Source: Ancylobacter oerskovii (lineage in GTDB: Bacteria; Pseudomonadota; Alphaproteobacteria; Rhizobiales; Xanthobacteraceae). From it: DNA of 64,000 nucleotides. How positions within the stretch are numbered: position 1 is the stretch's first letter; every line of letters begins with the position of its first letter. A program made the position numbers and the translations under genes. Positions 9,495-29,322 of this stretch are shown piece after piece. The DNA lies in contig NZ_JAHBGB010000006.1 in assembly GCF_018390555.1 (NCBI RefSeq), positions 62,001 through 126,000 on the forward strand. Direction: 5' to 3'. The notes beneath the pieces are model-generated. The model searched no databases. It was not told the origin of the DNA and worked only from the letters and a program-made list of their open reading frames with translations.

Positions 9495-9740
9495 CCGCTC
9501 GCTGGCCCATGGCTTGGGCCTCGCTGCTGCTCGGGCGCGTGTGGGAATGTCACATATGGAAGAGGAAGATCGTGCATTCCAGCATCTACTTTTGATCGAA
9601 TCTCGGCTAGGCACGTTCAAGTCGGCTCGACAGAATGGACGTCTCGGCCCTACGATTTCCTCCTTGGCCACCCGGCAGACGGCGCAGGGCGAAACCCTGC
9701 CTGGCACGAGCCTGGCGGACGTTCGCAATTGGATGGGTTA

Positions 9741-12338: not shown

Positions 12339-13471
12339 AGATCCTGTTCCTGGCGCCGCTCAAGCCGCCGGATCATCCGGTGCCATCGGGCGAGCGCACG
12401 GTCGCGCGCCTGTTCCTGAAGCTGCTCGGGCGGCTGGGCTATGAGGTGGAACTGGCGTCCCGCCTGCGGACCCTCGTCAGGCAGCCGTCTCCGGGAGCGT
12501 GGAGCGATGTGCAGGAGGAGGCGCGCGGCGAGCTCCGGCGCATCCTGGCTGCGCCAGTGGCAGCCAGCGGGCCGATCGCCTGTGTCTTCACCTATCACGT
12601 CTACTACAAGGCGCCGGACCTCATCGGCCCTACCCTCGCCGCTGCCCTCGGAGTCCCCTATGTCATCGCCGAGGCCTCGCGCGCATCGAAGCGGGCGACA
12701 GGTCCCTATGCCGAGGGACACAGGCTCAGCGAGGCGGCCATCGACCATGCCCGCCTCATATTGACGCCGACCCGTCACGATAGAGCGGCGCTGGAGGCAA
12801 TGCGCCCGCCACAGCAGCGCATCGTCGACCTGCGCCCCTTTCTCGATCTCGGCGAATGGCCTCTGGCCGGCATGCCCCGCCCCGCCCCCGCCCCTCGCGG
12901 CATCACCAGCTTGATCACCGTGGCGATGATGCGTGAGGGCGACAAGCTGGCTTCCTTCCGCCAATTGTCGGACGCGCTGTCTCTCCTTGGCGATCGTTCC
13001 TGGCACCTCACCGTGGTGGGGGACGGGCCTGCCCGTGAGGCCGTGGAGGCGCTTTTCGCCAGCTTCGGGAACCGCGTGAGTTTCCCCGGAGCCATCGTCG
13101 AGCGCCCGGCACTCGGTCGTCTGTTGGCCGATGCCGATCTGTTCGTCTGGCCGGGCGTGAACGAAGCGTTCGGGGCGGTTTACCTGGAGGCCCAGGCACA
13201 CGGCCTGCCTTGCGTCGCGGCCGGCTATGGCGGTATCCCCGACGTCATATGTGACGACGTTACCGGCCGGCTCACGCCACCGGGAGACATCGCCGCCCTG
13301 GCAACCGCTATCGGTGCTCTCATCGACGATCCCGCTGGCCGAGCCTCGATGGCGACGGCTGCGTCGCGCTTCATCGCCGCCGAGCGCGACCTTGCTGCCG
13401 CTTCCGACAGCGTTGCCCGGGCCTTCCATTTGGCAGGTATCGCCTTGCCGGCCTCCTCGCCCGGAGCTTGA
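12335..13471 (+). CDS. GT4-family glycosyltransferase
   Basis: The product is 378 aa, with the N-terminal motif MKILFLAPLKPPDHPVPSGE. The C-terminal donor-binding half is clear: NEAFGAVYLEAQAHGLPCVA carries the E-x7-E signature, followed by GGIPDV. ATGA overlap with the upstream GT4 gene implies translational coupling. The stop overlaps a TTG, and the next gene probably starts 3 bp later at a GTG. With its neighbours it likely adds sugars to one oligosaccharide. Confidence 0.86.
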   Translation: MKILFLAPLKPPDHPVPSGERTVARLFLKLLGRLGYEVELASRLRTLVRQPSPGAWSDVQEEARGELRRILAAPVAASGPIACVFTYHVYYKAPDLIGPTLAAALGVPYVIAEASRASKRATGPYAEGHRLSEAAIDHARLILTPTRHDRAALEAMRPPQQRIVDLRPFLDLGEWPLAGMPRPAPAPRGITSLITVAMMREGDKLASFRQLSDALSLLGDRSWHLTVVGDGPAREAVEALFASFGNRVSFPGAIVERPALGRLLADADLFVWPGVNEAFGAVYLEAQAHGLPCVAAGYGGIPDVICDDVTGRLTPPGDIAALATAIGALIDDPAGRASMATAASRFIAAERDLAAASDSVARAFHLAGIALPASSPGA

Positions 13472-13473
13472 TC

Positions 13474-15393
13474 GTGACCGACCGCACGGCTTTCATCGTC
13501 GTGACTCATTTGCTGGGCGTCGGCCATCTGGCGCGGATGGCGGCGCTCGGTCGCGCATTGGTCGCGGAAGGATGGCGGGTGGTCCTCGCATCGGGAGGGC
13601 GACCGAACCTCACGGTTCAGATGGATGGGTGCGAACTGGTGCAACTCCCTCCCCTCCACTGCGTCGGCGCGGATTTCGGCACATTGCTGATGCCGGATGG
13701 CCGGCCAGTCGACGAGGCCTATCGCGCGCGACGTGTCGAGGCATTGGTCGAGGCTTTCGAACGAGCCCGGCCGGAGGTGCTGATCACCGAGCTTTATCCA
13801 TTCGGCCGCCGCAGCCTGAGCGACGAATTCGAGGCCGTCCTGCAATGCGCGCTCGCCCAGCACCCACGGCCGGCCATCTTGTGTTCCATCCGCGATGTGC
13901 TCAACCCGCCTTCACGGCCGGAAAAGGCCGAGCGCGCCCAGGCCCGACTGGCGGCCAGCTATGATGGAATCCTGTTCCATGGCGACAGTGAGGTTGTCCC
14001 GCTTTCGGCATCGTGGCCGGTGGTGGATGCACTCATCCGACGTGTAAGAAATTCTGGCTATCTTCATGACAACAATCGATTCATCGAGAACGATGGACGG
14101 GACGGGTGTGACGAGATCGTGGTTTCCGGCGGAGGGTCGACTGCGGGCCTGCCACTGGCCCGCGCTACCCTGCTGGCCGCGGCCGAATTGCCGGAGCATC
14201 GCTGGCGGCTCTTGATCGGCCATGGCGTCGCGGAGCCGGATTTCACCGATCTGGTGGCCTCGGCTCCTTCCAATCTGATCGTGGAACGAGCGCGCCCGGA
14301 CTTTCCGCTGCTGTTGCGCCGGGCGGCGTTGTCGATCAGCCAAGCCGGCTACAACACGGTGCTCGATCTGGCGGCGGCAGGGGTTCGCTCCTTGCTGGTG
14401 CCCTTCGCCGAAGGGGGCGAGCGCGAGCAGACGCTGCGCGCCGTGGAACTGGAGCGGCGTGGCCTTGCCCGGGTCATCCCGACATCGGAGATCGATGGAA
14501 ATCGCCTGGCGCACGCCGCTTCCACCTTGCTGGCGGAGCCTCGCCCGGACTGGTCCGGCATCGCTCGCGACGGCGCCACGCGGGCGGTGCGGTGGATCGA
14601 TACGTTCGCCGGACAGGCTGCGGCGCGCTCAACGGGCCTTGACCGGCTCGATGCGATTCTGCGGCGCGGCGAGGCAATGCAGCGGACGTTTCGCTTCTGG
14701 TGGCGCGACGACGATGCCGTCGCGCCAAGCCCGGCATTGGACCGCCTGCTCGGTCGGGCGGTCGCACGCAACATTCCCGTTGCATTGGCGACCATACCGG
14801 CAAGCACGACGTCGGAACTCGCGCGCCATGTCGAAAGGCTCGATCGGGTAGACGTGCTGGTTCACGGCTGGAAGCACGGCAATCACGCGTCCGTCGGCGA
14901 GAAGAAGGCGGAGTTCGGCGCCCACCGGCCGGTCTCCGACATGGCGACCCAGGCGCGGCAAGGCTTGGAGCGGGTGACGGACCTGTTCGGCGACAAAGCC
15001 GTTCCGGTCTTCGTGCCGCCGTGGAACCGCGTGACGCCGGAACTGGTGAGCGCCCTGCCCGATGCCGGCTATATCGCGCTGTCGACCTATCAGCGGCGGA
15101 AGCAGCATTGTGCTGTCCCGAAACTGCTGCAGATCAATACCCATCTCGATCCGATTGCGTGGCGGAGCGGCGGGGGGCTCGTCGACGAGGCGGAATTGTT
15201 GGACCGGCTGGTCCTGCTGATGGAGCAGGAACTGGCGGCGGAGCCCGGCATGTTGGAGCCGATCGGGCTGCTGACCCATCATCTGGTGCATGACGGGTGG
15301 ATCGAGCGCTTCCTCGACGAACTCGTCTACCGGTTGCTGGCGTCAGGCGTGGTGCACTTCGTGAGTATCCGCGAACTGGTGGCGGAGCGGTGA
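13474..15393 (+). CDS. Bifunctional glycosyltransferase / NodB-type polysaccharide deacetylase fusion
   Basis: About 639 aa in one frame. Residues 1-390 form a MurG/GT28-like transferase: VVTHLLGVGHLARM at the N-terminus, VVSGGGSTAG and SISQAGYNTVLDLAAAG in the donor half. Residues about 400-640 resemble the NodB-homology deacetylase fold: WWRDDDA for the metal-binding Asp, VLVHGWKHGNH for the histidines, FVPPWNRVTPE for the catalytic loop and a C-terminal LLTHHL. The two activities would let one protein transfer a sugar and N- or O-deacetylate the product. No export signal is seen, so deacetylation would be cytoplasmic, unlike most NodB proteins. A TTG at 13468 is an alternative start. It is the last gene of the four-gene glycan run. 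Confidence 0.8.
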   Translation: MTDRTAFIVVTHLLGVGHLARMAALGRALVAEGWRVVLASGGRPNLTVQMDGCELVQLPPLHCVGADFGTLLMPDGRPVDEAYRARRVEALVEAFERARPEVLITELYPFGRRSLSDEFEAVLQCALAQHPRPAILCSIRDVLNPPSRPEKAERAQARLAASYDGILFHGDSEVVPLSASWPVVDALIRRVRNSGYLHDNNRFIENDGRDGCDEIVVSGGGSTAGLPLARATLLAAAELPEHRWRLLIGHGVAEPDFTDLVASAPSNLIVERARPDFPLLLRRAALSISQAGYNTVLDLAAAGVRSLLVPFAEGGEREQTLRAVELERRGLARVIPTSEIDGNRLAHAASTLLAEPRPDWSGIARDGATRAVRWIDTFAGQAAARSTGLDRLDAILRRGEAMQRTFRFWWRDDDAVAPSPALDRLLGRAVARNIPVALATIPASTTSELARHVERLDRVDVLVHGWKHGNHASVGEKKAEFGAHRPVSDMATQARQGLERVTDLFGDKAVPVFVPPWNRVTPELVSALPDAGYIALSTYQRRKQHCAVPKLLQINTHLDPIAWRSGGGLVDEAELLDRLVLLMEQELAAEPGMLEPIGLLTHHLVHDGWIERFLDELVYRLLASGVVHFVSIRELVAER

Positions 15394-15405: not shown

Positions 15406-15906
15406 TCAGTCCTGGCGCCGATACAGGTAATAGCGGTCGGGAGAGGCGCCGTCCGGCACCGGCACTTCGTCGAAATCTTTGAGATTCAACGGTAAATCCG
15501 ACATGACGATGCCGCCCGGTGCCATGAACGGGGGCAGAAGGTCGCTGGCCAATCCGGCGACACGGCGGTTCGATTCCCGGTCGAAGGAGCCGAGATCCGA
15601 GTTCGCGAGCACCACCCGGCCGGCAAGGCGCTCCCGCAATCGGGGCAGGGTTTCCTCGATTTCCCCGAGGATGAGGAAGCGAGGATCGGGCTGGCATTCC
15701 GCATAGGCGCCGTTGACCCGATCGAAGACGTAGATGTCGCGTCCCGGCAGGTGCTTGCGCAGGTGGTCGAAGGTGCGGCCGAGACCGAGACCGAGCTCTA
15801 TGACCGGGCCGGTGCGGTGTACGATGCGTTCGAAAGCCCAGGCCAGGCAGGCTTGCTGTGACTGCAGGCGAAGCAGCGTCTTCTCCAGACGGGACAGGCC
15901 GGTCAT
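15406..15906 (-). CDS. Small class I SAM-dependent methyltransferase
   Basis: The product is 166 aa. SAM-binding motif I is VIELGLGLGRTFDHL (35-49), with an acidic end of strand 2 at YVFDRV (59-64) and a catalytic-region segment GGIVMSDLPL (131-140). Size and motifs fit the small rhizobial methyltransferase family that I recall as Methyltransf_17 (not verified). It starts 11 bp after the stop of the importer permease, so it is probably the last gene of that transcription unit. It converges on the deacetylase fusion with 12 bp between stops. The substrate is unknown. Confidence 0.75.
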   Translation of the reverse strand: MTGLSRLEKTLLRLQSQQACLAWAFERIVHRTGPVIELGLGLGRTFDHLRKHLPGRDIYVFDRVNGAYAECQPDPRFLILGEIEETLPRLRERLAGRVVLANSDLGSFDRESNRRVAGLASDLLPPFMAPGGIVMSDLPLNLKDFDEVPVPDGASPDRYYLYRRQD

Positions 15907-15917
15907 GTGCGGCTTGC

Positions 15918-17099
15918 CTATCGATAGGGATCGGCCGCGTCGCGCAGCCCGTCGCCCAGGAAATTGAAGGCGAGGATCACCGCGATCACCGGCACCACCG
16001 GCAGGATGAGCCAGGGATAGAGCACGACGATGTTGATGTTCTGCGCCTCGTTCAGCATCACCCCCCAGCTGGTGATCGGCGGACGCAGGCCGAGGCCGAG
16101 GAAGCTGAGCGCGGTCTCGCCGAGGATCATGCTGGGAATGGCGATGGTGGCCGAGGCGATGAGATGGCTCAGGAAGCCCGGCACGAGGTGGCGGAACACG
16201 ACGCGCGGCGTGCCCGCCCCCATCAGTTGCGCCGCGACGACGTAATCGTCCTCGCGCAGCGACAGCAGCTTGGAGCGGACGGCGCGCGCCAGCCCGGTCC
16301 AGTCCATCAGCCCGAGGATCACGGTGATGCCGAAATAGACCAGGATCGGGCTCCAGCTCGGCGGCATGATGGCGGAGAGCGCCAGCCACAGCGGGATGGT
16401 CGGCAGCGACTGCACCACCTCGATGGTCCGCTGCACCAGCAGGTCGAACAGCCCGCCATAATAGCCGGCGAGGCCGCCGATCACGATGCCCAGCGTGAAG
16501 CTGACGGCGATGCCGATGAGCCCGATGGTGAGCGAGATGCGCGCGCCGTAGATGATGCGCGAGAGCATGTCGCGGCCCAGCCTGTCGGTACCGAGCAGGA
16601 ACAGCGTGCCGCCCTCCCCCGGGCAGACGAGATGGAGATTGCCCTCGAACAGGCCCCAGAACCGGTAGCCGTCGCCGCGGCAGAAGAAGCGGACCGGGAA
16701 GATCTGCTGCGTGTTCTCCGCGTAGTTGCGCTTCAGGCTGGTCATGTCGAGCGTCGAGGTCAGCCCGTAGGTGAACGGCCCGACGAACTGCCCCTCATGG
16801 AAGAAATGGACGCTCTGCGGCGGCGTGCGGATGAAATCGGTGTGGCGGACCTGATAATTATAGGGCGCCAGGAACTCGCTGATGAGGATCGAGCCATAGA
16901 GCAGTATCAGGAAGACGCCCGAGGCGACCGCCAGCCGGTGCTTGCGGAACTTCCACCACATCAGCGTCAGCTGCGAGGCGAGGTAGACCCGCTCCTGCGC
17001 CTTGGTGAGCTTGTCGGCCTGGTAGGGATCGAACGCGCCTCCGGCCACGTAGTGGGGTAGCGGCGTGCCGGAGGGCGGCAAGGCAACCGGTTGGTTCAT
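15918..17099 (-). CDS. Peptide-type ABC importer permease (DppC/OppC class)
   Basis: Inner-membrane permease of 393 aa. A hydrophilic N-terminus of about 55 residues precedes TM1 (about 56-75). A large periplasmic insertion of about 110 residues follows, longer than in OppC and reminiscent of YejE-type permeases. Then come GTDRLGRDMLSRIIYGARISL and five further TM segments. The EAA-type loop that contacts the ATPase is visible as DDYVVAAQLMGAGTPRVV. The start overlaps the stop of the partner permease (4 bp), so translation is likely coupled. Confidence 0.92.
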   Translation of the reverse strand: MNQPVALPPSGTPLPHYVAGGAFDPYQADKLTKAQERVYLASQLTLMWWKFRKHRLAVASGVFLILLYGSILISEFLAPYNYQVRHTDFIRTPPQSVHFFHEGQFVGPFTYGLTSTLDMTSLKRNYAENTQQIFPVRFFCRGDGYRFWGLFEGNLHLVCPGEGGTLFLLGTDRLGRDMLSRIIYGARISLTIGLIGIAVSFTLGIVIGGLAGYYGGLFDLLVQRTIEVVQSLPTIPLWLALSAIMPPSWSPILVYFGITVILGLMDWTGLARAVRSKLLSLREDDYVVAAQLMGAGTPRVVFRHLVPGFLSHLIASATIAIPSMILGETALSFLGLGLRPPITSWGVMLNEAQNINIVVLYPWLILPVVPVIAVILAFNFLGDGLRDAADPYR

Positions 17100-18094
17100 T
17101 TCGTGCGCCCCCCCTGCAGGCGGATGCGCGGATCGAGGAAGCCGAGCAGGATGTCGGAGATCAGCACGCCGATCACCGTGAGGCAGGACAGGAACAGCAG
17201 GAACGAGCCGGCCAGATACATGTCCTGGCTCTGCAACGCGCGCAGCAGCAGCGGGCCGGTGGTCTGCAACGACAGCACGACCGCGGTGAGCTCCGAGCCG
17301 GAGACGATGGACGGCAGCACGTCGCCGATATGCGAGACGAAGAAGTTGAGCGACATGCGCAGCGGGTACTTCACCAGCGCCTTGCCGGGCGGCAGGCCCT
17401 TGGCCTTGGCGGTGACGTAATACTGCTTCTGCAACTCGTCCAGGAGGTTGGCGCGGATGGCGCGCACCATGCTGCCGGTGCCGCCGGCGCCGATGATGAG
17501 CACCGGGATCCACAGATGGGCGAGGATCGACTGCGCCTTGGCCCAGCTCATCGGCTGGTTGAAATAGATCGGGTCCATCAGCCCGCCGATGGACAGGCCG
17601 AACCACACATTGGCGAAGTACATGAAGATCAGCGCCAGCAGGAAGTGCGGCACCGCGATACCGATGAGGCCGATGAAGGTGAGCCCGTAATCCGCCCAGC
17701 TATATTGATGCGTCGCCGAATAGATGCCGATCGGGAAGGCGATGATCCAGGTCATCAGGATGGTGCAGAACGACACCAGCACGGTCAAAGCGAGGCGTTC
17801 GCCGACCACGTCGCTGACCGGCATCTCATATTCGAACGAGTAGCCGAAATCCCCCTGGACGAAGCCGGTGACCCAGAGGAAATAGCGTTCGATCAACGGC
17901 TTGTCGAAGCCGTATTCCCTCTTGAGGAATTCGACGCGGCTCATGTCGGCATGCTCGCCCTGCGCCGCCATCTCGGCCACGTAGGTCTCGAAATAGTCGC
18001 TGGGCGGCAGCTGCATCACCGTGAAGATCAACGCGCTGGTGATCAGCAGCGTCGGGATCATGATCAGGATGCGACGGGCTATGTAGCGCAGCAT
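17096..18094 (-). CDS. Peptide-type ABC importer permease (DppB/OppB class)
   Basis: The product is 332 aa, starting MLRYIARRILIMIPTLL, the standard first TM of DppB/OppB permeases. The periplasmic loop holds the helical segment with FLKREYGFDKPLIERYFLW. About six TM segments follow, with the coupling loop YYVTAKAKGLPPGKAL. The gap to the substrate-binding protein gene upstream is 3 bp and the overlap with the second permease is 4 bp, giving a standard importer operon. Confidence 0.93.
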   Translation of the reverse strand: MLRYIARRILIMIPTLLITSALIFTVMQLPPSDYFETYVAEMAAQGEHADMSRVEFLKREYGFDKPLIERYFLWVTGFVQGDFGYSFEYEMPVSDVVGERLALTVLVSFCTILMTWIIAFPIGIYSATHQYSWADYGLTFIGLIGIAVPHFLLALIFMYFANVWFGLSIGGLMDPIYFNQPMSWAKAQSILAHLWIPVLIIGAGGTGSMVRAIRANLLDELQKQYYVTAKAKGLPPGKALVKYPLRMSLNFFVSHIGDVLPSIVSGSELTAVVLSLQTTGPLLLRALQSQDMYLAGSFLLFLSCLTVIGVLISDILLGFLDPRIRLQGGRTK

Positions 18095-18097
18095 CGC

Positions 18098-20014
18098 CTA
18101 GTCCTTTGCGTCGTCGAACCAGAAGGTGTCGGGCAGGTACACGCCGAAATAGGCGCCGGGCTCGAAACTGTAGATGCCGACCTCCGGCACGTTCTTCAGG
18201 CGATTGGAGACGACGACCGGCTGCGAGGCGCGATTGACGATGCCGATGGTGAACACCTCGTCGGCATTGATCTCCAGCATGCGCTGCCAGATGGCGCGCC
18301 GCTCCTCCGTGGTGACCGACTGCCGCCAGCGCTTCTGCAGGTCGATCAGTTCCTGCGCCGCCGGCAGATCGGGCTTCTCGCCCATCTGGCCGCTGGTTTC
18401 GACGTGCTGGCCCCATTGCGGCCACTGGAACTGCATGGAATTCGACGGTGCCAGGCCATCCGGCGCCATGTCGGGCCCGGGAATGGCATTGTCGATGCCG
18501 GGCCACACCGACATCATGGCGTTGCCGGAGCTGACGCTGCGCCGGAGCAGGTCGGTCTGCGTCGCCCGCACGAACAGCTTGATGCCGACCTTCTCCCAAT
18601 CATAGGCGACGAGCTCGAGGATGTCGGTCTCCTCCGTGCTGTTGCCCGCCGTCTGGATGGTGATCTCGGCGCGCCGGCCGTCCGGCAGCAGGCGGATGCC
18701 GTCGTCGTCGCGCTTCGACAGTCCGGCGGCGTCGAGCAGCTTGTTGGCGAGCGCCGGGTCGTATTGCGCCCAGGCGGTATCGTATTTGGAATCGTAGAGC
18801 GAGCTGCCGGGAATGATGGTGTTGGCGCCCTCATGGGCGAGGCCGAAGAAGATGACCTGGTTGATGTCGCGCCGGTTGATGGCGACGGACAGCGCCCGCC
18901 GGACGTTCACGTCGCGCAGCACGGCGCGCCAGCCGGGATCCTGCACGTTGAGATTGGGGAACACCGCGACATAGGCCCCCTCCCCACGCTCCCACAGCCG
19001 CACCGTGTAGTTGCCGCGCTGCTCCCCCTCCTTGAGGAAGGTGTAGTTGTCGAAGCGCAGATAGCGGGCCTGCAAATCGGACCCGCCGGCGCCGACCTTG
19101 GCCGGGATGAGCGAGGAGGTGCCGATGGCGATGGTGACGCGATCGATATAGGGCAACTGCCAGCCGCGCTCGTCGATACGGTGGAAATAGGGGTTGCGGT
19201 CGAAGACGAAGAATTCCGCCGGCGGCTTGGTGCGCGGGATCCAGGGCCCGAGCATCGGCAGTTCCGGGTTCTCCGGCCGGTAGGAACGCGCCATGCGGTC
19301 GTGCAGCGCGCCCCAGTCCTTCACCCGCTCCTGCCGGATCAGCGCCCCCAGCCGGATGGGATCGGCATAGCGCTGGTGGAACATGCGCAGATAATGCGCC
19401 GGCGCGTAGATCTCCAGCGGCTGCGCCCCGGCGAGCGCCGGCAGGAAGGACGGATTGGGCTTGCTCCAGGTGAAGCGCACCGTCGTCTCGTCGACGACCT
19501 CGAACCGGGCGATCTCGCCATCGACATAAAGCTGGACATTGGGCGGCCCGCCCGGGCTGAGCCGGTCGTTATTGGCCATGTCCTCCCACCAGTAGCGGAA
19601 GTCCTCGCTGGTAAAGGGCCAGCCATCCGACCATTTGTGCCCCTTGCGCAGATGCAGGGTGAAGATGCGGCCCTCCTCCACATCGACCTTCTCCAGCAGG
19701 TCGGGGACGATCCTGCCGGCGGTGTCGAACACCACCAGCCGCGTGTAGCCGTAGATGCTGATGGCGCGGATATCGCGCTGGTCGCCCATCAGCATGCGCA
19801 TGGTGCCGCCATAGCGCCCCGGCTCGCGGCCCATGCCGGCGACGTCGATCACCCGGGGCGAATCCGGCAGCCGGTCCGCCATGGCCGGTATCTGGTTGAT
19901 GTCGACCTCGGTGCGCAGCAGCGGCGGTTCCGGCGGATAGCGCCCGCCGGGCGCGGCGAGCGCCGGGCCGGCGGCCAGCAGCAGGGTGAGTGCCAGTAAC
20001 GTGATCCGGCGCAT
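18098..20014 (-). CDS. ABC importer substrate-binding protein (SBP_bac_5 family)
   Basis: Periplasmic ligand-binding protein of 638 aa. The signal peptide MRRITLLALTLLLAAGPALAA is cleaved near residue 21. The length places it in the large cluster-C binding proteins used for peptides and peptide-like compounds. Recognisable segments include FTLHLRKGHKWSDGWPFT, which is characteristic of the family, and RRALSVAINRRDIN. It lies 8 bp after the fused ATPase gene and 3 bp before the first permease gene. The ligand cannot be predicted. Confidence 0.92.
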   Translation of the reverse strand: MRRITLLALTLLLAAGPALAAPGGRYPPEPPLLRTEVDINQIPAMADRLPDSPRVIDVAGMGREPGRYGGTMRMLMGDQRDIRAISIYGYTRLVVFDTAGRIVPDLLEKVDVEEGRIFTLHLRKGHKWSDGWPFTSEDFRYWWEDMANNDRLSPGGPPNVQLYVDGEIARFEVVDETTVRFTWSKPNPSFLPALAGAQPLEIYAPAHYLRMFHQRYADPIRLGALIRQERVKDWGALHDRMARSYRPENPELPMLGPWIPRTKPPAEFFVFDRNPYFHRIDERGWQLPYIDRVTIAIGTSSLIPAKVGAGGSDLQARYLRFDNYTFLKEGEQRGNYTVRLWERGEGAYVAVFPNLNVQDPGWRAVLRDVNVRRALSVAINRRDINQVIFFGLAHEGANTIIPGSSLYDSKYDTAWAQYDPALANKLLDAAGLSKRDDDGIRLLPDGRRAEITIQTAGNSTEETDILELVAYDWEKVGIKLFVRATQTDLLRRSVSSGNAMMSVWPGIDNAIPGPDMAPDGLAPSNSMQFQWPQWGQHVETSGQMGEKPDLPAAQELIDLQKRWRQSVTTEERRAIWQRMLEINADEVFTIGIVNRASQPVVVSNRLKNVPEVGIYSFEPGAYFGVYLPDTFWFDDAKD

Positions 20015-20022
20015 GACGACCC

Positions 20023-21891
20023 CTATGCGCAGCGAATGTCTTGGGCGGTGCAGTTCTCGGCCGCCAGCACGCTATGGCCGTTGCCGAGATCGATCATTCC
20101 CAGGGGAGAGCCTTCGGAGCCCCGGAACTCCCGCGGCCAGCTCGCCGGATCCGACGCCGTGCCGCCGGACATGGCGATGTCGAAGTCCAGCTTGCGGTCG
20201 AGGTCCGGCAGCGGCACCGCCTTCAGCAGGCACTGGGTATAGGGATGCGCCGGATGGCGGAACAGCTCCTGCCGGGGCCCGATCTCGACGATGCGCCCGC
20301 GCGCCATCACCGCGATGCGCTCGGCCATGTAGTGCACCACGGCGAGATTGTGGGAGACGAACAGGTAGGTGAGGCCGAGCGAGGCCTGCAGATCCTTGAG
20401 CAGGTTGAGGATCTGCGCCTGCACGGAGACATCCAGCGCCGATACCGGCTCGTCGCAGATGATGAGCTCGGGATCGAGCGCCAGGGCGCGGGCGATGCCG
20501 ATGCGCTGGCGCTGCCCGCCGGAGAAGCTGTGCGGGTAGCGGTTGAGGAAGCGGGGGTCGAGGCCCACCGCCTGCATCAGCTCCACCGCCCGCTCCTTCT
20601 GGGCGCGGATGTCGCCCCGGCCCTGGATGATCATCGGCTCGCGGATGATGTCGAGCACCGTCATGCGCGGCGACAGCGAGCTGACCGGGTCCTGGAAGAT
20701 CATCTGCATGTGCGGGCGGAAGGCCTTCAGCGCGTGGGAATCCAGCCCCAGCACGTCGACGGCGCCCTTCTCGCCGTGAAAGACGACGTCGCCGGCATCC
20801 GCCTTGCGCGCCCGCATGATCATGTTGCCGACGGTGGTCTTGCCCGAGCCGCTCTCGCCCACCAGGCCGAGGCATTCGCCCCGCCCGATGTCGAAGCTCA
20901 CATCGTCGACCGCCAGCACCGCGCCGCCGCTCTTGGAGCCGTAGGTCTTGCGCAGATGGCGCACGCTCAGCAGCGGCGCGCTGTTGTCATAGGCGGGCTT
21001 GAGCCGGGTCGGCGCCACCGGCGCCACGTCGCGCAGCGCCACCAGGCGCTCGCCTTCCTTCATGTCGAAGTCCGGCGACGCCTTCAGCAGCGCCTTGAGA
21101 TAGGGATGCGAGGGCCGGCGGAAGATGTCGTCCACCGGGCCGGCTTCCATCACCTCGCCGCGATAGACCACCACCACCTCGTCCGCCATGTTGGCGACGA
21201 CGCCGAGGTCGTGGGTGATCAGGAGGATCGCCATGCCGATGTCGTGCTGGAGCTCCTTCATCAGCTTCAGCACCTGCGCCTGGATGGTGACGTCGAGCGC
21301 GGTGGTGGGCTCGTCGGCGATCAGCAGCGCCGGGTGGCAGATGAGCGCCATGGCGAGCATGGCGCGCTGGCGCAGGCCGCCGGACAGTTCGAAGGGGTAG
21401 CGGTCATAGGAGCGGGGCGGGTCGCGGAAGCCGACCAGGCCGAGCATCTTCTCGGTGACCGCCCTCGCCTCCCGGCGCGGATGCGGGCGATGGAGCTGCA
21501 GCGCCTCCTCGATCTGGCTGCCGACCGTGTGCACCGGCGACAGCGAGGACATCGGCTCCTGGAAGATCATGCCGATGCGCCCGCCCCGCAGCTTGCGCAT
21601 CTTGGTGCCGTCGGCGGGAAGCTGGGCGATGTCGAGGACCTTGCCGTCCTTCAGCGGGTCGCTGAACAGGATGCGGCCTTCGGTGATGAGGCCGTTGCGC
21701 GGCAGCAGCCCCATGACCGCCTGGGAGATGACGGTCTTGCCGGAGCCGGATTCCCCCACCAGCGCGACCGTGCGCCCGGCGGGCACGCGCAGTGACACGC
21801 CCTTCACCACCTCGTTGAGATGGCCGTGCATCTCGAAGGAAATGCGCAGGTCCTCGATGCGCAGGACATCGGAAGGCGTCGGGAGCGCCAC
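20023..21891 (-). CDS. Fused dual ATPase of peptide-type ABC importer (DppDF/YejF class)
   Basis: The product is 622 aa with two complete nucleotide-binding domains in tandem. The first has Walker A GESGSGKT (46-53), signature LSGGLRQR and Walker [13 protein letters not shown]. The second has [17 protein letters not shown] and [12 protein letters not shown]. All catalytic residues are intact, in clear contrast to the exporter-like protein encoded upstream. Each half carries the C-terminal oligopeptide-transporter extension. It begins 4 bp after the stop of the cyclase-like gene, which puts the importer in the same transcription unit. Confidence 0.94.
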
Positions 21892-21895
21892 GCGT

Positions 21896-23635
21896 CTATA
21901 CTCCGGCCTTGTTCAGGACCCTGAGCATAGCAGGGCGCGCCATGATCTTGTCCAGCGCCGCGCGATCGGAAACGGCATAGGCCGGGACCGTCGTGTTGTG
22001 CGCGTCGACCACGACGTCGCGGACGCTGTAGTCGGTGAAGTCGTAGCCGGAGGCCTCGGCCGTCGTGGTCGAGACCACGTAGTCCGCCAGGAACTCCTTC
22101 GACGCCGCCTCCAGGCCCACCGAGAAGGCGACGGTGGTGCCGATGGCGCGCATGACGGAATTCTGCAGGCCGTCGCCGATGCGGGCCAGCACCACCGGCC
22201 CGGTATGGACGCCGATGCCGGCGCGGATGGGGATGGGCAAAGCACCCCTCATTTCCGAATTCAGCAGGTCGAGCACCCGGCTCATGTCCCGCATCGCGCT
22301 CAGCGCCGCCCGGGCGCCGGCACCGACATGGTGCTCGTCGGCGTCGAAGACCGCTACCAGGCCGTCGCCATACATCAGGTCCACATGACCGCCATGGCTT
22401 TCCACTGCCTGGGTCATCTCGGCGGCAAAGCGATTGATCAGCACAGCGATCTCATAGGGGAGCCGGTTCTGCGTCAGCGTGCTGAAGGCCCGCAGGTCCA
22501 GGCACAGCACGGTGGCGCTGCGCTCCAGCGCCCATTCATTGGCGTCGCCGTCGACGTCGGCCGTCGCGCGGCCGAGCACCGGCATCAGCACCCGCACGCC
22601 GATGTCGTGATTGGGACGGAGCTGGCAGCCGAGGCGCACATTCTCGGGCGCGCCGATATGGGCGAGCAGCATCCGCTCCGGTCCCGACGTCTCCGGCAGC
22701 CCCTTGGCGCCGGCCAGTATATGCACCCGGCAGGTCGAGCAGCGCCCGCGCCCGCGGCAAGTCGAGGGGTGCGGAATGCCGTGCATGCGGCTCGCCTCCA
22801 GCACGGAGACGCCGCGGGGCACCTGGATGGGGCCGTAGCCGCGATAGGTGATGGTCACCGTCGCCCGCGCCCGCCGGCGCAGATAGGCGAAGCCGATGAG
22901 GCCGGCCAGCCCGATGCCGAAGGCGCCGAGACCGCTGTCCAGCATCATCCGCGCCCGGTCGAGGCCGGCCCGCTGCTCGGCCGTCATCGGCTTGGGATTC
23001 ACATAGGTTCCCCCCGCCTCGCGTCCCGAGGCGACGAAGCCGGCGAGCGACAGCAGCGGGATGATGATCGCCACCACGCGCAGCGTCGCCTGCCAGTGCG
23101 GGTACCAGCCCTGGTAGCGCAGCGAGTGGTGGATGCCGACCACGCCATGCGTCCAGGCGACCAGGAGGAGCATGGTCTGCCACGGGGCGACCGCCGGCCA
23201 CATCCGGGAGAGCACCGCGTGGTAGGTCTCGTCGGCTCCGAACCAGGTGCCGCCGACCCGGGTCTCCAGCACATGGCCGGCGGCCAGCAGCGGGATGGCG
23301 AGGCCCGACACGATCTGCCAGGCCTCGTCCCGCGGCATCCGCCAGGTATGGCGGCGCAGGATGCGCTGGCTGGCGAGGACCAGATGCGTCGCGAAGGAGC
23401 CGTAGAGCAGGACGGTGCCGGGAAGCGACTTCCACAGCAGCCACCGCCATTGCTGCGCGACCTCCATCGCCTCGATGCCGAATATGCCGACCGCATGGTT
23501 GACGAGATGCGTCAGCACGAAGGTGAACAGTACGATCCCCGACCAGAGCCGCGCATGGCAAGCCCAGGGACGGTCGCGAAGATCCTGCTGGATCCTGCCG
23601 GGCGCCGGCGTGCCGGTGGTGGTGATCGAGGCCAT
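21896..23635 (-). CDS. Membrane protein with 2Fe-2S ferredoxin domain and degenerate class III cyclase domain
   Basis: The product is 579 aa in three parts. Residues about 30-250 hold five or six TM helices rich in histidine (H43, H47, H84, H121, H163, H169, H170), like the cytochrome b subunits of succinate dehydrogenase, so haem binding is plausible. Residues 265-350 are a ferredoxin domain with C293, C299, C302 and C337, the adrenodoxin-like C-x5-C-x2-C spacing. Residues 374-555 align with class III nucleotide cyclases. Both metal-binding Asp are kept (D380, D424). The base-specifying Lys is L420, the second base-contact residue is V494, and the transition-state Asn and Arg are A503 and G507. 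Normal cNMP synthesis is therefore doubtful. The gene is 8 bp after the cNMP-binding gene and 4 bp before the importer ATPase gene. Confidence 0.85.
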   Translation of the reverse strand: MASITTTGTPAPGRIQQDLRDRPWACHARLWSGIVLFTFVLTHLVNHAVGIFGIEAMEVAQQWRWLLWKSLPGTVLLYGSFATHLVLASQRILRRHTWRMPRDEAWQIVSGLAIPLLAAGHVLETRVGGTWFGADETYHAVLSRMWPAVAPWQTMLLLVAWTHGVVGIHHSLRYQGWYPHWQATLRVVAIIIPLLSLAGFVASGREAGGTYVNPKPMTAEQRAGLDRARMMLDSGLGAFGIGLAGLIGFAYLRRRARATVTITYRGYGPIQVPRGVSVLEASRMHGIPHPSTCRGRGRCSTCRVHILAGAKGLPETSGPERMLLAHIGAPENVRLGCQLRPNHDIGVRVLMPVLGRATADVDGDANEWALERSATVLCLDLRAFSTLTQNRLPYEIAVLINRFAAEMTQAVESHGGHVDLMYGDGLVAVFDADEHHVGAGARAALSAMRDMSRVLDLLNSEMRGALPIPIRAGIGVHTGPVVLARIGDGLQNSVMRAIGTTVAFSVGLEAASKEFLADYVVSTTTAEASGYDFTDYSVRDVVVDAHNTTVPAYAVSDRAALDKIMARPAMLRVLNKAGV

Positions 23636-23643
23636 CTAAGTGG

Positions 23644-24156
23644 TCAATGTGCGTGCTGCGGCTCGGAAATGTTGCGCCCGGCATCGGCCGCCGCCGCCCC
23701 CTCGGGGAGCTGCTGCACCAACTGGGCGCAGATATTGTTCAGGTCCATGATCTGGCGTCCCAGCTCGCGCATGACGGCGAAATTGAAAGGCGGCGATTCT
23801 TTCAGCAACTGCAAGAAGATATCGCGATCGATGCGCAAGGCGACGACAGGAGTTTCGGCGGTGATGGTCACCATGCGGTCCTGATCGCACAGCACGCCCG
23901 CCTCGCCGAGAATGGCGCCGCGCACGTGCTGGGCGAAATTGATCACCCCCGCCGCCGCCGTGCGGAGCGAGACGGTGAACTGCCCTTCCAGCACGATGTA
24001 GACCGCATCGGAGGCGGCACCCTGCTCGTAGATCACCTCGCCCGGCTGGAACGTGATCCGGTCGCTGACCATGGCGAGCAGCTTCAGCTTGGACGCCTCC
24101 ACATGATGGAACATGCGGAATTTCTGCATCGACCTGACTTCGTCCTCGATGGTCAT
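23644..24156 (-). CDS. Stand-alone cyclic-nucleotide-binding domain protein
   Basis: The product is 170 aa, a single Crp-type cNMP-binding domain with no DNA-binding helix-turn-helix, no kinase and no membrane segment. The phosphate-binding cassette is GAILGEAGVLCDQDRMVTI, with the conserved Glu at 85 and Arg at 94, so ligand binding looks possible. The tail ends in Ala-rich and His-containing sequence. AGGAGG (24163-24168) lies 6 nt upstream and sets the ATG start; a TTG at 24162 is also in frame. It sits between the exporter-like gene (27 bp) and the cyclase-like gene (8 bp), so it likely relays a signal between those proteins. Confidence 0.88.
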   Translation of the reverse strand: MTIEDEVRSMQKFRMFHHVEASKLKLLAMVSDRITFQPGEVIYEQGAASDAVYIVLEGQFTVSLRTAAAGVINFAQHVRGAILGEAGVLCDQDRMVTITAETPVVALRIDRDIFLQLLKESPPFNFAVMRELGRQIMDLNNICAQLVQQLPEGAAAADAGRNISEPQHAH

Positions 24157-24162
24157 GTTCAA

Positions 24163-24168
24163 CCTCCT
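24163..24168 (-). promoter_or_regulatory. Ribosome binding site of the cNMP-binding gene
   Basis: A perfect AGGAGG on the minus strand lies 6 nt before the ATG at 24156. It selects that start over the TTG at 24162. Confidence 0.65.
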
Positions 24169-24183
24169 GAGGAGCTCGGCCCC

Positions 24184-26901
24184 CTATGCAGATGCCGTCG
24201 CAGGCTCCGACGCCACCGCATCGGAAGGTATCCGAGCGCTCTCTCTCCGTTCAAGGCCAGTAAACTTAGCACCTTCGAATTTAAGCACTGTGTCGAAGGA
24301 CGACAGGTCATCCTCGCCCGACTGGGTCACGATGACGGTGCGCCCTTCCATGGCGTCCATGATGTTCTCAAGGATCATATGGCCTTCCGACGGCGTGAAG
24401 CTAGATAGAGCATCGTCGAGTATGAGGATATCCGGCCGCCGCAGCATGGCGCGGGCCAGCTGCACCGTCACCCGCTGCTGCACCGAGATCAGCCGGCCCC
24501 CCGGGCCGACCTCCTGGTCGAGGCCCTTGGAGACCACGAAGCTTTCCAGCCCGTGCTCGTTCAGCACCTCGGCGATGGCGGCGAGAAGCTTGTCGCGCAT
24601 GTGCGCCTTGCCATAGCGGACGCGGCCGAAGATGAGGTTGTCGCGGATGGAGGCGGCCGGCATCAGCCGCCCCTCGTCGTAGAACTCCACGTCCTTGGCA
24701 TCCGACGCCGGCAGGAACTGCCGGAAACTGGCGCGCGCGCGCAGGATGCGGGCCACCAGCCGGTCGTCGATCAGGTTGAGGCGATGGCGCGGCTCCACAT
24801 ACATCAGCGCGTAGCCGATCAGCTTGTCGCGGACCTGCGCGCTCAGATGCCGACGCTGCCCGCGATTCCAGGCGGAGCGAACCTCCGGCCACACCGCCTC
24901 GATCTCGGCATTGTCGATGAAGGAATAGCGCTCGCGCAGCGGATTGTCCGGGGCGAGGTCCTGGAAGACGTCGGCCACCGTCTCCACCATCTTGATGCCG
25001 ATCGCGGTCAGCGGAGCGGTCAGCGCCTCGGCGGCGATGATCGAGCGCATGAACGGATCGGCGGCCATGTTCTCCGGGCTGAAGCGGTTCCCGACCGCGA
25101 CGCCGTAGAGCAGGTTCTCGCCGATGCTGGCGCTGGTGTTGAACGTGTCGGGCTCGAAGGCCTCGACATATTGCAGGAGGCCCCGCTCCTTGAAGCGCTC
25201 GATCATCGCCGGCCGTGCCGCCAGCAGGCGCTCGGCGGTGTCCGGGGGCGTGTCGTCGCCGAGCCGGCTCGACATGCCGACCCGGAAGATCTCGTCATAG
25301 CCGCGCACGATCCGCAGGGCATTGCTGACGGCGGCGTCCACCTCCGCCGGGCTGGAGGCGCCGATGGCGGCGTAGTCGATCCAATCGGCATCGGGCGACA
25401 CCAGCGGATTGTCGGTCTTGCGCGCCTCCTCCAGCCAGTAGCGCTGCTTCGCGGAGAGCTCTGCGCGCTCGTCCGGCCGCGGGGTGGCGCGGCGCAGCGC
25501 CAGGGTGAGGTTGTCGCGAATGGAGCCCGACATGATGAAGGGCTCGCTCGACACGTAGAGCAGCAGGGCGCTGGCCTCGCGGTCCGACATGCCGGCGATC
25601 TCCCGTCCGTCGATCGCCACGCTTCCCTGGTAATCGGTGACCTGACGGCCGATGACCTTCGCCAGCACGTCGCGCCCTCCCCCCGCCGGGCCGGCGAGGG
25701 CGATGCGGCCGGGGCGGTCCATGGCCACCGACATGCGATCCAGCTGGACGAGGCCGCGGCCATTGACCACCCGCAGCCCGACCACGGTGATCGGCGCATC
25801 GGCCGCCACCGCCGGCGGCGGCTCGATGGTTTCCTTCGGCAGCAGCGTGTCCTTGGAGAACTGGCTGACCACCTGCTCGTATTTGACGGTGACGTCCGCC
25901 CGCTGCTGGTCCCAGTCGATCAGTTCCTTGATCGGCGTCGGCAGGTCGCGATAGGCGGCGATCACCGCCACCAGCTGGCCGATGTCCAGCTGGCCCTTGA
26001 GCGCGAGGTAGCCCCCGAGCGTGTAGAAGACGAAGGGAGTGAGCTGGGCGAGCAGGTTGTTGAGATACTTGACCGCGAATTTGCGGCGATAGAGCCGCAG
26101 GCGGATGTCGAACAGCGTGCCGAGCCGGTGGCCGATCTCGGCCGAGGAATGGCCGGTGACGCCGAAATTATGCAGCGCCGGCGCCGCCTCGATCATCTCG
26201 CCGATGCGCCCGGCGAGGATGCGGGATTCGATCTGCCGCTCGCGCCCGAGGCGGATCTGCTCGCGGCGCAGATGCGGGATGACGAGGCCCTGCACCAGGA
26301 TGAGCGCAATGGCGAGCGTGCCCAGCCACATGTTCTGGACGAGGATGAACGCCATGGCGGTGAGCGCCTGGGTGCCCAGAAAGGCCGGGGTGATGAACGC
26401 CTCGCCGAAAAAGCCGCCGATCGGCTCGACCTCGTCCTTGATCATCGAGGTGACTTCCGCCGGCTTGGTCGTGCGGATGTCCTCCGGGCGGAAGCGCATG
26501 ACCAGCCCGAACAGGTCGAAGCGCAACCGGCGCAGCATGCGCTCGCCGAGCACGCCCTTGCGGATGTTGATGACGTATTTGAACCAGCCGTTGATCAGCG
26601 TGAGCACCAGGAACACCAGGCTCAGCGCGAAGAGATAGGGCAGCTGGGCCAGCAGCAGCCCGTCGGAGATCACATAGCTGCCGCCGCCGAGATAATCCGG
26701 CAGCGAAAGATTGTAGGCGAACAGGCGGGCCTGGGAGACCCCGTTCTCGAAGACGCTGCCCTGGATGCCCTCGTTGACGATGCGCTTGGGCACGTCGAGC
26801 GACCACCAGTAAAAAGGCAGCGACGCCGCCACGTAGAACAGCACGATGAGCTGCTCACGCCGGCTGTACATCCAGACGTAACGAAAAAAATTGACCGACA
26901 A
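24184..26901 (-). CDS. ABC exporter-fold protein with degenerate, expanded nucleotide-binding domain
   Basis: The product is 905 aa. Residues 1-330 form the exporter membrane domain: TM near 18-34, 83-104, 173-205 and 283-315, and coupling-helix region around 135-165. Residues 370-880 resemble an ABC ATPase, but every catalytic motif is altered. Walker A reads GPAGGGRD (404-411, Lys to Arg and Ser/Thr to Asp). The Q-loop Gln is Ser452. The signature is ISVQQ (805-809). Walker B ends DD (829-830) instead of DE. The D-loop is SSFT and the switch His is Gln860. The Q-loop to signature distance is about 350 residues rather than the usual 75-80, and the lid motif S-I-x-[DE]-N-L occurs three times (460, 592, 751). 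The frame is continuous. The start is a TTG, and the ATG at 26871 is an alternative. It is the first gene of the eight-gene unit. Confidence 0.85.
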   Translation of the reverse strand: MSVNFFRYVWMYSRREQLIVLFYVAASLPFYWWSLDVPKRIVNEGIQGSVFENGVSQARLFAYNLSLPDYLGGGSYVISDGLLLAQLPYLFALSLVFLVLTLINGWFKYVINIRKGVLGERMLRRLRFDLFGLVMRFRPEDIRTTKPAEVTSMIKDEVEPIGGFFGEAFITPAFLGTQALTAMAFILVQNMWLGTLAIALILVQGLVIPHLRREQIRLGRERQIESRILAGRIGEMIEAAPALHNFGVTGHSSAEIGHRLGTLFDIRLRLYRRKFAVKYLNNLLAQLTPFVFYTLGGYLALKGQLDIGQLVAVIAAYRDLPTPIKELIDWDQQRADVTVKYEQVVSQFSKDTLLPKETIEPPPAVAADAPITVVGLRVVNGRGLVQLDRMSVAMDRPGRIALAGPAGGGRDVLAKVIGRQVTDYQGSVAIDGREIAGMSDREASALLLYVSSEPFIMSGSIRDNLTLALRRATPRPDERAELSAKQRYWLEEARKTDNPLVSPDADWIDYAAIGASSPAEVDAAVSNALRIVRGYDEIFRVGMSSRLGDDTPPDTAERLLAARPAMIERFKERGLLQYVEAFEPDTFNTSASIGENLLYGVAVGNRFSPENMAADPFMRSIIAAEALTAPLTAIGIKMVETVADVFQDLAPDNPLRERYSFIDNAEIEAVWPEVRSAWNRGQRRHLSAQVRDKLIGYALMYVEPRHRLNLIDDRLVARILRARASFRQFLPASDAKDVEFYDEGRLMPAASIRDNLIFGRVRYGKAHMRDKLLAAIAEVLNEHGLESFVVSKGLDQEVGPGGRLISVQQRVTVQLARAMLRRPDILILDDALSSFTPSEGHMILENIMDAMEGRTVIVTQSGEDDLSSFDTVLKFEGAKFTGLERRESARIPSDAVASEPATASA

Positions 26902-27018: not shown

Positions 27019-27972
27019 ATGCGCATTGCCCCGACCGCTGCCCTGTTCGTCGCCCTGCTGACCTCGCCGGGAATGGCCGATCCCGCCACCCCGCTCGCGG
27101 ACGGTTTCGAGGGCCAGGATTTCGCGCCCGCCGGCGGGCTCTACTACAAGCACAACCGCGAGCAGAGCGCCGGCACCGTGGTGTTCCAGTCGCAGGTGGT
27201 GCGGGCCGGCCGCCAGGCGCTCGACCTGTCGGTGCGCCCGATGTGCAAGCCCGAGAACGAGCTGTGCAGCGAGCGCGCGGAGATCTGGGAAAAGCCGGAG
27301 GTGCTGGTGCCCTATGGGCAGCCGACCTGGTACGGGCTGTCGATGCAGCTCGCCCAGCCGGTGTCCACCGAGCGCCATCGCTACGTGATGATGCAGTGGA
27401 AGCGCGAAATCGATCCGGGCGCGATGGGCGACTACAGCCCGCTGCTGGCGCTGCGCCTGATGGAAGGCCGCCTCGCCGTCACGGTGGACACCGATACCGG
27501 CACGTTCGCCCCCATCGGCACGCCGGAGCGCCCGGACGGCTGCAAGCCGGGAGAGGCGATGGCGGCGGCGCCCGACGAATACAACCAGTTCCGCTCGCTG
27601 GTCGCCATCGAGCCGGGCGCGATGGGGGCGGAGGAAGCCGGCTTCACCGGCTGCACCCCGGACATAAGGGTGACGCCGCGCGGGCCGCTGCCGGCCGCCG
27701 GCTCGGGCTGGGTCGACTACGTGTTCATGGTGAAGCCGGGGCCCACGGGCGACGGGCGGATCGACGTGGTCGCCAACGGCCAGTGGATCGTCACCGTCGA
27801 AGGCAAGATCGGCCATGAGGGGCCGCAGCTCGGCGAGCACATGTATTTCAAGTTCGGCCCCTATCGCGGCGGCGACAGCAACATCTGGCGCATCTATTAC
27901 GACGACTTCCGCCGCGGCCCCGCCTGCTCCGACGTGGCCGACGCCGCCCTCTGCGCCCGGATCGGCAAGTGA
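27019..27972 (+). CDS. Secreted polysaccharide-lyase-like protein (heparin lyase I family fold)
   Basis: The product is 317 aa. A signal peptide MRIAPTAALFVALLTSPGMA precedes a beta-rich, jelly-roll-like protein. Segments such as CSERAEIWE, RHRYVMMQWKRE and WVDYVFMVKPGP, and a C-terminal GPYRGGDSNIWRIYYDDF, fit the polysaccharide lyase family I know as PF14099. Six cysteines in the mature protein are in keeping with a periplasmic or extracellular location. It is transcribed divergently from the exporter-like gene (117 bp apart) and converges on the UDP-sugar dehydrogenase with 12 bp between stops. It could trim or turn over the glycan made by nearby transferases; that is inference. Confidence 0.6.
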   Translation: MRIAPTAALFVALLTSPGMADPATPLADGFEGQDFAPAGGLYYKHNREQSAGTVVFQSQVVRAGRQALDLSVRPMCKPENELCSERAEIWEKPEVLVPYGQPTWYGLSMQLAQPVSTERHRYVMMQWKREIDPGAMGDYSPLLALRLMEGRLAVTVDTDTGTFAPIGTPERPDGCKPGEAMAAAPDEYNQFRSLVAIEPGAMGAEEAGFTGCTPDIRVTPRGPLPAAGSGWVDYVFMVKPGPTGDGRIDVVANGQWIVTVEGKIGHEGPQLGEHMYFKFGPYRGGDSNIWRIYYDDFRRGPACSDVADAALCARIGK

Positions 27973-27984: not shown

Positions 27985-29322
27985 TCAGGCCCTGACCAGC
28001 CGCCGCGGCGCCAGGCCGAGGCGCGCGAAGACGTTGCGGGTGTCCACCACCAGCCGGGCCTGCTCCGCTACCAGCGCGTAATCGACGTCGTCATGGTCGG
28101 TCGCCACCAGCACGGCGTCGAAGCCCGCCAGGGCCGCGGCATCGAGCGGGATCGACGGCTTGCCGCTGAGGCGCGGGTGCCTGCGCGTCGGCGGCAGCGC
28201 CGTCACCTGCGGGTCGTGGAACTCGCAAAGCCCGCCGCGCTCGTCGATCAGCTCCATCAGCTTCAGGGCCGGGCTCTCGCGCACATCGTCGACATTCTTC
28301 TTGTAGGCCGCACCGAGTACCAGGATGCGGGCGCCGGCAAGGCCGCGACCGAAGCTGCGGTCGAGCGCCTCGGCGAGCTGGTCGACGACCAGATACGGCA
28401 TGCGGGTATTGATCTGGCCGGCGAGCTCGATGAAGCGGGTCTCGATGTCGAACTCGCGCGCCTTCCAGGTGAGGTAGAACGGGTCGATCGGGATGCAGTG
28501 TCCGCCGAGCCCGGGGCCGGGATAGAAGGGCATGAAGCCGAAGGGCTTGCTGCTGGCCGCCTCGATCACCTCCCAGATGTCGATGCCCATGGCGGCGTAG
28601 ACGCTCTTCAGCTCGTTCACCAGCGCGATGTTCACCGAGCGGAAGATGTTCTCCGTGAGCTTCACCGCTTCCGCGACCTGGGTGGAGGAGACCGGCACCA
28701 CCCTGCTGATCAGCTGCCCGTAGAGCAGCTGCGCCAGCGCGCCGGCCTCGGGGCCGTCTCCGCCCACCACCTTGGGGATGGTGGCGGTGGAGTAGCTGGC
28801 ATTGCCGGGGTCTTCCCGCTCCGGCGAGAAGGCGAGGAAGAAATCGCGACCGCAGACGAGCCCGGTCTCTTCCAGGATCGGCCTGACCAGCTCGACCGTG
28901 GTGCCGGGCCAGGTGGTGGATTCCAGCACCACCAGCTGGCCCGGGCGCAGCGTCGCGGCGATGGTCCGCGTCGTCTCGGCGACGAAGGAGAGATCGGGCT
29001 CGCGCTGGCGCGTCAGCGGCGTCGGCACGCAGATGACGATGGCGTCGCAGGCACCGAGGCCGGAGAAATCCTCCGTGGCCCGGAAACGCCCGTCCGCCAG
29101 GGCCGCCTTCATGCGGTCGGCGGCGATGTAGCGGATCACCTGCTCGCCGGCATTGATCGCCTCGACGCGGCGCGGGTTGATGTCGAAGCCGCGCACCGGG
29201 AAGCCCGCCTCGGCGGCGACCAGGGCCAGCGGCAGGCCGACATAGCCGAGGCCGATGATGCCGATCGTGGCGCGGCGCGAGCGGAACAGCGTGTCGAGCT
29301 CGGCGAAGGGAGACGTGGTCAT
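27985..29322 (-). CDS. UDP-sugar 6-dehydrogenase (UDP-GlcNAc/ManNAc dehydrogenase type)
   Basis: Oxidises the C6 hydroxyl of a UDP-hexose or UDP-HexNAc to the uronic acid, using two NAD+. The product is 445 aa with Rossmann motif [13 protein letters not shown] (21-33), FSPEREDPG (165-173), the catalytic Cys276 in [11 protein letters not shown], and a C-terminal UDP-binding domain with [17 protein letters not shown]. The FSPERxxPG and GGHCIPxDPxY patterns favour the WbpA/TviB/WecC branch over UDP-glucose dehydrogenase. It lies 42 bp downstream of hflX on the same strand. It probably supplies a uronic acid for a surface glycan. Confidence 0.9.

Follow-up and report, generated by a model that had tools for sequence, protein, structure and literature searches.

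What can a bacterial locus be doing when it packs an ABC protein of exporter fold, with an incomplete set of ATPase motifs, together with a cyclic nucleotide monophosphate (cNMP)-binding protein, a haem/2Fe-2S cyclase-like protein and an importer of the Opp type? The question arises from eight minus-strand genes, G1 to G8 (table 1), at positions 15406-26901 of a stretch of 64,000 nucleotides from Ancylobacter oerskovii (contig NZ_JAHBGB010000006.1), which belongs to a 5.48-Mb assembly and is called here the window. We consider it about an even chance (probability near 0.5) that these genes are part of a conserved locus that both makes and retrieves a glycan, in which G1 and its cNMP-binding partner G2 form a regulated membrane element and not an ATP-driven pump. 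This reading builds on computed results: which genes belong to the locus and occur together, which motifs are lost, the G1-G2 fusions and the conservation of the sensor. Searches of the open-access literature, among them searches with combinations of its families, Methyltransf_17, 3IHT and 5IPW, turned up no account of the locus as a whole.

Co-occurrence was followed through three draws of 385 alphaproteobacterial genomes, one each for G1, the glycosyltransferase gene gtA and the binding-protein gene G5; these had identical identifiers and totals and were taken as one set. G1 was found in 131 genomes, about one third of the draw, a count that includes partial and membrane-domain-only matches. 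gtA was present in 127 genomes, that is, 124 of the 131 with G1 and 3 of the 254 without it, and G5 in 124 (120/131 and 4/254, respectively). Among the genes tested, gtA is the strongest genome-level partner of G1. Five distinct genomes had gtA or G5 but no G1; four of them are only 68-86% complete and the fifth, the complete genome G042, has a weaker gtA match. Additionally, 12 G1-less genomes checked separately showed gtA in one and G5 in one, and both genes were absent from the member of this set that belongs to the window's own genus. Genomes thus gain or lose the locus nearly whole.

An initial annotation of this DNA had tied a signalling module to the importer and named near-absence of co-occurrence as the outcome that would speak against the link. 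This outcome was not seen: both the locus survey and the 385-genome co-occurrence place the link far beyond chance, and it is wider and stronger than that annotation supposed. Chance adjacency was rejected, given the same gene order in ten related loci and the genome-level contingency. In a phylum-wide draw, 32 of 398 genomes matched G1, of which 31 were Alphaproteobacteria and the remaining one had a short match; 267 matches lie in plasmid records, mainly from Rhizobium and Sinorhizobium. A locus present in about a third of the sampled alphaproteobacterial genomes, rhizobial replicons included, should have a definable product, and the questions that it raises are testable in tractable bacteria.

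To see what belongs to the locus, we compared 200 loci: 80 named loci, which are the best 80 of at least 575 confirmed G1 relatives, an order sample of 40, which covers most of the matches, and a class sample of 80 from the better-ranked part of the G1 matches. The regions span about 8.6 kb on each side of G1 or run to the contig end, and the importer counts are lower bounds; all assignments used tblastn score thresholds, and some of the importer or glycosyltransferase genes may be paralogues. A cNMP gene was present in 78/80 named, 40/40 order-sample and 77/80 class-sample loci. A gene like G3, resembling CyaC, was found in only 1/80 class-sample and 7/40 order-sample loci, and for this rarity the trio G1-G2-G3 was rejected as a conserved unit: the unit is G1-G2. 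At least three of four glycosyltransferase genes were near G1 in 51/80, 25/40 and 57/80 loci (named, order and class samples), and some importer gene in 61/80, 22/40 and 45/80. Upstream extension of 20 class-sample loci showed the ATPase, the binding protein and both permeases in 17, the other three being short of the binding protein alone. Less widespread were a nucleotide-sugar dehydrogenase (12/80, 3/40 and 1/80) and a lyase-like protein of family PF14099 (21/80, 1/40 and 0/80); together with gtD, both were present in all eight named Ancylobacter loci.

Based on these data, the locus of G1 to G8 also includes the four glycosyltransferase genes at 9729-15393, and the lyase-like gene and the dehydrogenase gene are part of the same neighbourhood. 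The extent given by the initial annotation, which took the eight genes as the whole unit, was thus understated. Their order recurs in ten of the 80 best matches (L039-L047 and L061), namely in eight Ancylobacter, one Xanthobacteraceae metagenome-assembled genome and another such genome labelled Asaia; the closest G1 among the named matches listed is from Ancylobacter, with 91-92% identity over the best segment. A single run headed by the trio is a local arrangement. The importer is divergent and upstream of G1 in Bosea; in Microvirga, Chelatococcus and many class-sample loci the glycosyltransferase run and the importer genes are divergent from G1, and in several order-sample loci both precede it in the same direction. 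Plasmid pRL11 of Rhizobium johnstonii carries one co-directional run of cyclase, ATPase, binding protein, two permeases, three glycosyltransferases, ABC and cNMP genes, and still other orders occur in Sinorhizobium meliloti, Sulfitobacter and Azospirillum.

In structural comparison, G1 has the exporter fold across its whole chain, the membrane domain being followed by the nucleotide-binding domain in one chain, and its matches include SUR2B and heterodimeric exporters such as TM287/288. Its Walker A reads GPAGGGRD, with Arg for Lys and Asp for Ser/Thr; the Walker B Asp is kept, but Asp replaces the Walker B Glu and Ser the H-loop His. In an alignment of 205 family members, none has Walker A, the Walker B Asp-Glu and the H-loop His all canonical, and five have a Walker A in the right region. 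G1 is presumably not pumping. The membrane domain is better conserved than the nucleotide-binding part. Within the latter, two extra SIRDNL-like segments (residues ~586-600 and ~746-760) surpass the ATPase motifs in conservation, and N596, N755 and G759 are each present in 205/205 members. The residue after the Walker A Lys is most commonly Glu or Asp (139/205), and the Walker B position has Asn in place of Asp in 75/205; the nucleotide site may be an unusual one in which the acidic metal ligand has, as it were, moved. A few open frames of ~380-425 amino acids match the membrane domain alone (table 1) and are possibly stand-alone relatives without any nucleotide-binding domain.

G2 is a protein of 172 amino acids with cNMP_binding as its sole Pfam match at E <= 0.01, a threshold at which no C-terminal DNA-binding helix-turn-helix was matched. 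It has the pocket Glu and Arg of the cNMP-binding CRP/FNR superfamily, but not the helix-turn-helix. Eight of the 205 G1 relatives (two confirmed by Pfam and six read by eye) carry a cNMP domain as a C-terminal fusion, so that a G1-G2 complex is likely; control of this pair by cyclic nucleotides is what we would expect. Of the membrane sensor complex of G1, G2 and G3 suggested in the initial annotation, the G1-G2 part gains from these fusions, whereas the trio is not conserved.

The active site of a class III cyclase comprises two metal-binding Asp, an adenine-binding Lys/Asp pair and a transition-state Asn/Arg pair. G3 has the fold, since cyclase domains fill its structural matches, but its Guanylate_cyc match scores 19.8 bits against a cut-off of 21.9 (22.8 bits in a genome search) and the catalytic Lys, Asn and Arg are replaced by Leu, Ala and Gly. 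The label 'degenerate' is therefore right for both G1 and G3. The sensor part is unaltered: in 51 linked G3 rows, deduplicated by genome, four membrane His (H43, H84, H121 and H163) and the 2Fe-2S cysteines C293, C299, C302 and C337 are all invariant (51/51), and the His are presumed to bind haem. A quick tree places the loss of the cyclase active site in a single clade, and within this clade some three separate decays of the cNMP pocket. G3 resembles CyaC of S. meliloti, which likewise has a membrane domain with conserved His, a 2Fe-2S domain and a class III cyclase domain; it differs from it in lacking the catalytic Lys, Asn and Arg. The membrane domain of CyaC is described as a six-helix di-haem-b domain and the protein as responding to quinones (PMC10463352). 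Moreover, G3 adjoins ABC, cNMP and importer genes, whereas cyaC is placed in that source beside genes of TetR- and LysR-type regulators (PMC10463352).

The glycosyltransferases gtA and gtD gave GT28/MurG-like matches and gtB and gtC gave GT4 matches, none of them at the NCBIfam cut-off. The C-terminus of gtD aligns lengthwise with annotated polysaccharide deacetylases of Sulfitobacter and Azospirillum, although Pfam matched no polysaccharide-deacetylase family in gtD or in the aligned Sulfitobacter protein. NCBIfam offered no family for the methyltransferase G8 or the lyase-like gene, and a sequence search of the PDB returned no match for the latter. The deacetylase-like part, the dehydrogenase and the distribution of PF14099 hint that the product, at least among relatives of the window, is a glycan with amino sugars and/or uronic acids.

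The importer is complete, with an SBP_bac_5 protein, two BPD_transp_1 permeases and intact ATPases with oligo_HPY; its ATPase (G4) and permeases (G6 and G7) are of ordinary Opp/Gsi types by Pfam and NCBIfam. The best solved matches of the binding protein G5 are OppA 5ipw, SPH1118 of Sphingomonas sp. A1 and then an alpha-galactoside-binding protein, with dipeptide-binding and chitin-oligosaccharide-binding proteins lower in the list. The first is from Thermotoga maritima, and SPH1118, annotated as oligopeptide-binding, is reported to bind unsaturated trigalacturonate and hardly any peptide from mixtures, with Arg57, Arg438 and Trp594 as key ligand residues (PMC9314435). G5 is, like SPH1118, a large SBP_bac_5-type protein. 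In an alignment matched by reading, the Arg57 position is Arg in 60/60 locus rows and the Trp594 position is aromatic in 59/60 (Trp in 28). Because of this relationship and the partial residue match, a saccharide ligand is favoured for G5 and the importer looks more like an oligosaccharide than a peptide importer.

Taken together, the four glycosyltransferases, one with a deacetylase-like part, would build a short amino-sugar and/or acidic glycan, assisted in some genomes by the methyltransferase and the nucleotide-sugar dehydrogenase, and the importer G4-G7 would carry an oligosaccharide back or in. G1 with its subunit G2 may act as a gate, receptor or assembly platform of this pathway. Some of the Hyphomicrobiales have a class III cyclase nearby, which would make the signal that G2 reads, one version being the CyaC-like, haem/2Fe-2S redox-sensing protein. 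In the window's clade the cyclase domain appears to be a pseudo-enzyme with an intact redox sensor, so that the respiratory redox state would most likely be relayed by protein contact. A bolder proposal, which we hold to be unlikely, is that G1-G2 represents a new kind of ABC-fold system, a glycan channel, flippase or scaffold gated by cyclic nucleotides instead of driven by ATP, and that across the Alphaproteobacteria it is coupled near-obligately to a glycan importer and to a pathway of four glycosyltransferases. The locus offers a natural series for studying how a membrane ABC fold works after the loss of its ATPase motifs, and what becomes of a redox-sensing cyclase and its nucleotide-binding partner once catalysis is lost.

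Several observations weigh against a regulated, non-pumping G1-G2. The Walker A Lys is kept in 71/205 family members, the Walker B Asp in 95/205 (window included) and the Lys plus the Walker B Glu in 40/205; because of the exporter fold and of this partial retention of Lys, Asp and Glu, nucleotide binding or weak hydrolysis by G1 is possible. In heterodimeric exporters such as TM287/288, one nucleotide site is degenerate. These counts, the well-conserved membrane domain, the fold that extends over the whole chain and the match to TM287/288 all agree with G1 being still a working glycan exporter that relies on a non-canonical nucleotide site or on a canonical ABC half supplied by another protein. 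In that case the locus would combine ordinary export with scavenging import, and the part of G2 and the cyclase would be limited to tuning it. Nevertheless, not one of the 205 members has the three canonical determinants, few have a Walker A in place, and family searches recognised no canonical exporter half among the window locus genes examined, which makes this alternative rather doubtful.

The signalling part of our reading meets difficulties as well. G2 of the window keeps the Glu and Arg of the phosphate-binding cassette (E87 and R96), and locus L172, which has no CyaC-like gene, has also lost the pocket Arg. In the quick tree, loss of the cyclase site counts as a single event, in a clade whose branch has a support of 91 and is not starred; a link between a dead cyclase and a decayed pocket therefore has about three later losses behind it, with one pair in the independent-pairs test. 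Cyclase control is not universal, since 72/80 class-sample loci have no class III cyclase open reading frame (ORF) in the fetched region. The activities of the glycosyltransferases are guesses at the family level.

With regard to the ligand, the top-scoring solved relative of G5 is an OppA, and the Arg438 of SPH1118 is not conserved in the G5 family (Arg in 2/60 locus rows). Along with the SBP_bac_5 and Opp-like families and the eight-gene order in ten related loci, the OppA match suits the working model of the initial annotation, in which the first three proteins sense and control the uptake of a peptide-like compound. We find it very improbable: of the partners tested at genome level, a glycosyltransferase is the strongest, the trio is not a conserved unit, and the closest solved relative of G5 with a known ligand is the pectin-oligosaccharide binder, which G5 partly resembles in its residues. 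Another view is that the product is a small glycoconjugate, such as a signal or a metallophore-like or antibiotic-like compound, which is secreted through G1 and retrieved by the Opp-type importer. The near-obligate pairing of exporter fold, glycosyltransferase and dedicated importer, to which a deacetylase-like part and a methyltransferase are often added, would fit such a product. However, the genes searched included no recognisable enzyme for making a core scaffold, and G1 lacks canonical ATPase motifs; we judge this view improbable.

G1 shares its fold with MsbA-like type IV ABC exporters, S. meliloti MsbA2 included, but has a large insert and an incomplete ATPase motif set. In sulfonylurea receptor/CFTR-type proteins, which do not pump, the exporter fold may regulate or gate, and G1 could resemble them in role; they are eukaryotic and are not known to have a cNMP subunit. 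MsbA2 is encoded with glycosyltransferase genes and has been suggested as the exporter of an unknown polysaccharide (PMC3687685, PMC12239276). The G1 homologue of S. meliloti 1021 lies at pSymB 841723-844435, whereas a fragment of SMb21188, the first gene of the msbA2 operon, is at pSymB 938297 (PMC3687685), and identity of G1 with msbA2 was thus rejected. SMb20813, a candidate for the S. meliloti G1 gene, has been called the homologue of msbA in that species (PMC10945364). In Rhizobium leguminosarum, pRL110056 is listed among O-antigen genes needed for root colonisation (PMC11103875); by position only, it may plausibly lie in the R. johnstonii locus.

In the window, all eight minus-strand ORFs were confirmed and Pfam backs every product; order and gaps are as first described. 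From G1 to G8 the gaps are 21, 8, 4, 8, 3, -4 and 11 bp, the first becoming 27 with the G2 start at ATG 24156, which is better placed, with AGGAGG six bases 5' of it. gtD and G8 end convergently, 12 bp apart. Scans for internal signals gave four promoter-like sites (1.5 in shuffles) and seven terminator-like ones, some overlapping (3.7 in shuffles); these are all weak consensus matches and do not settle whether the eight genes form one operon.

Table 1. Genes of the locus in the window, with matches to the membrane domain of G1 elsewhere.
Feature	Position	Strand	Product	Details
G1	24184..26901	-	type IV ABC-exporter-fold protein; degenerate nucleotide-binding domain with long insert	905 amino acids, TTG start; Pfam ABC_membrane + ABC_tran
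G2	23644..24156	-	lone cNMP-binding domain protein	ATG 24156 probable start, TTG 24162 also open; Pfam cNMP_binding
G3	21896..23635	-	CyaC-like: membrane domain, 2Fe-2S domain, fold of a class III cyclase whose active site is lost	Pfam Fer2 + Guanylate_cyc
G4	20023..21891	-	fused Opp/Gsi-type importer ATPase	two canonical Walker A; Pfam ABC_tran x2 + oligo_HPY
G5	18098..20014	-	binding protein	Pfam SBP_bac_5; nearest solved relatives OppA 5ipw and SPH1118
G6	17096..18094	-	OppB-like permease	Pfam BPD_transp_1
G7	15918..17099	-	OppC-like permease	Pfam BPD_transp_1
G8	15406..15906	-	S-adenosylmethionine-dependent methyltransferase	Pfam Methyltransf_17 (PF12692)
gtA	9729..11021	+	GT28-like glycosyltransferase	weak MJ1255-family match
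gtB	11025..12338	+	GT4 glycosyltransferase	EpsE-like
gtC	12335..13471	+	GT4 glycosyltransferase	
gtD	13468..15393	+	MurG-like glycosyltransferase	polysaccharide-deacetylase-like C-terminal part
lyase-like gene (accessory)	27019..27972	+	polysaccharide-lyase family protein	PF14099; divergent from G1
dehydrogenase gene (accessory)	27985..29322	-	nucleotide-sugar dehydrogenase	closest equivalog UDP-ManNAc dehydrogenase, score under its cut-off
membrane-domain-only G1 matches	G226:C4:21623-22381, G495:C1:4600176-4601066, G814:C7:146372-147142, G811:C8:100893-101675, G598:C67:301-1047			genome:contig:positions

The cassette at 9729-29322 is flanked by a mazG-like gene (8625-9494) and an HflX-like gene (29365-30771, named by eye). 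An hflX match stands beside the cassette in the three closest Ancylobacter loci (L039, L040 and L046) and none flanks it in L041-L045 and L047, which suggests that the cassette was relocated as one unit. A histidine phosphatase family gene lies within the glycosyltransferase run of both the Sulfitobacter (L271) and the Azospirillum (L272) locus. Near the R. johnstonii locus (L268) there is a DUF3095 gene (29257-30483), adjoined by a gene for an S-adenosylmethionine-dependent methyltransferase.

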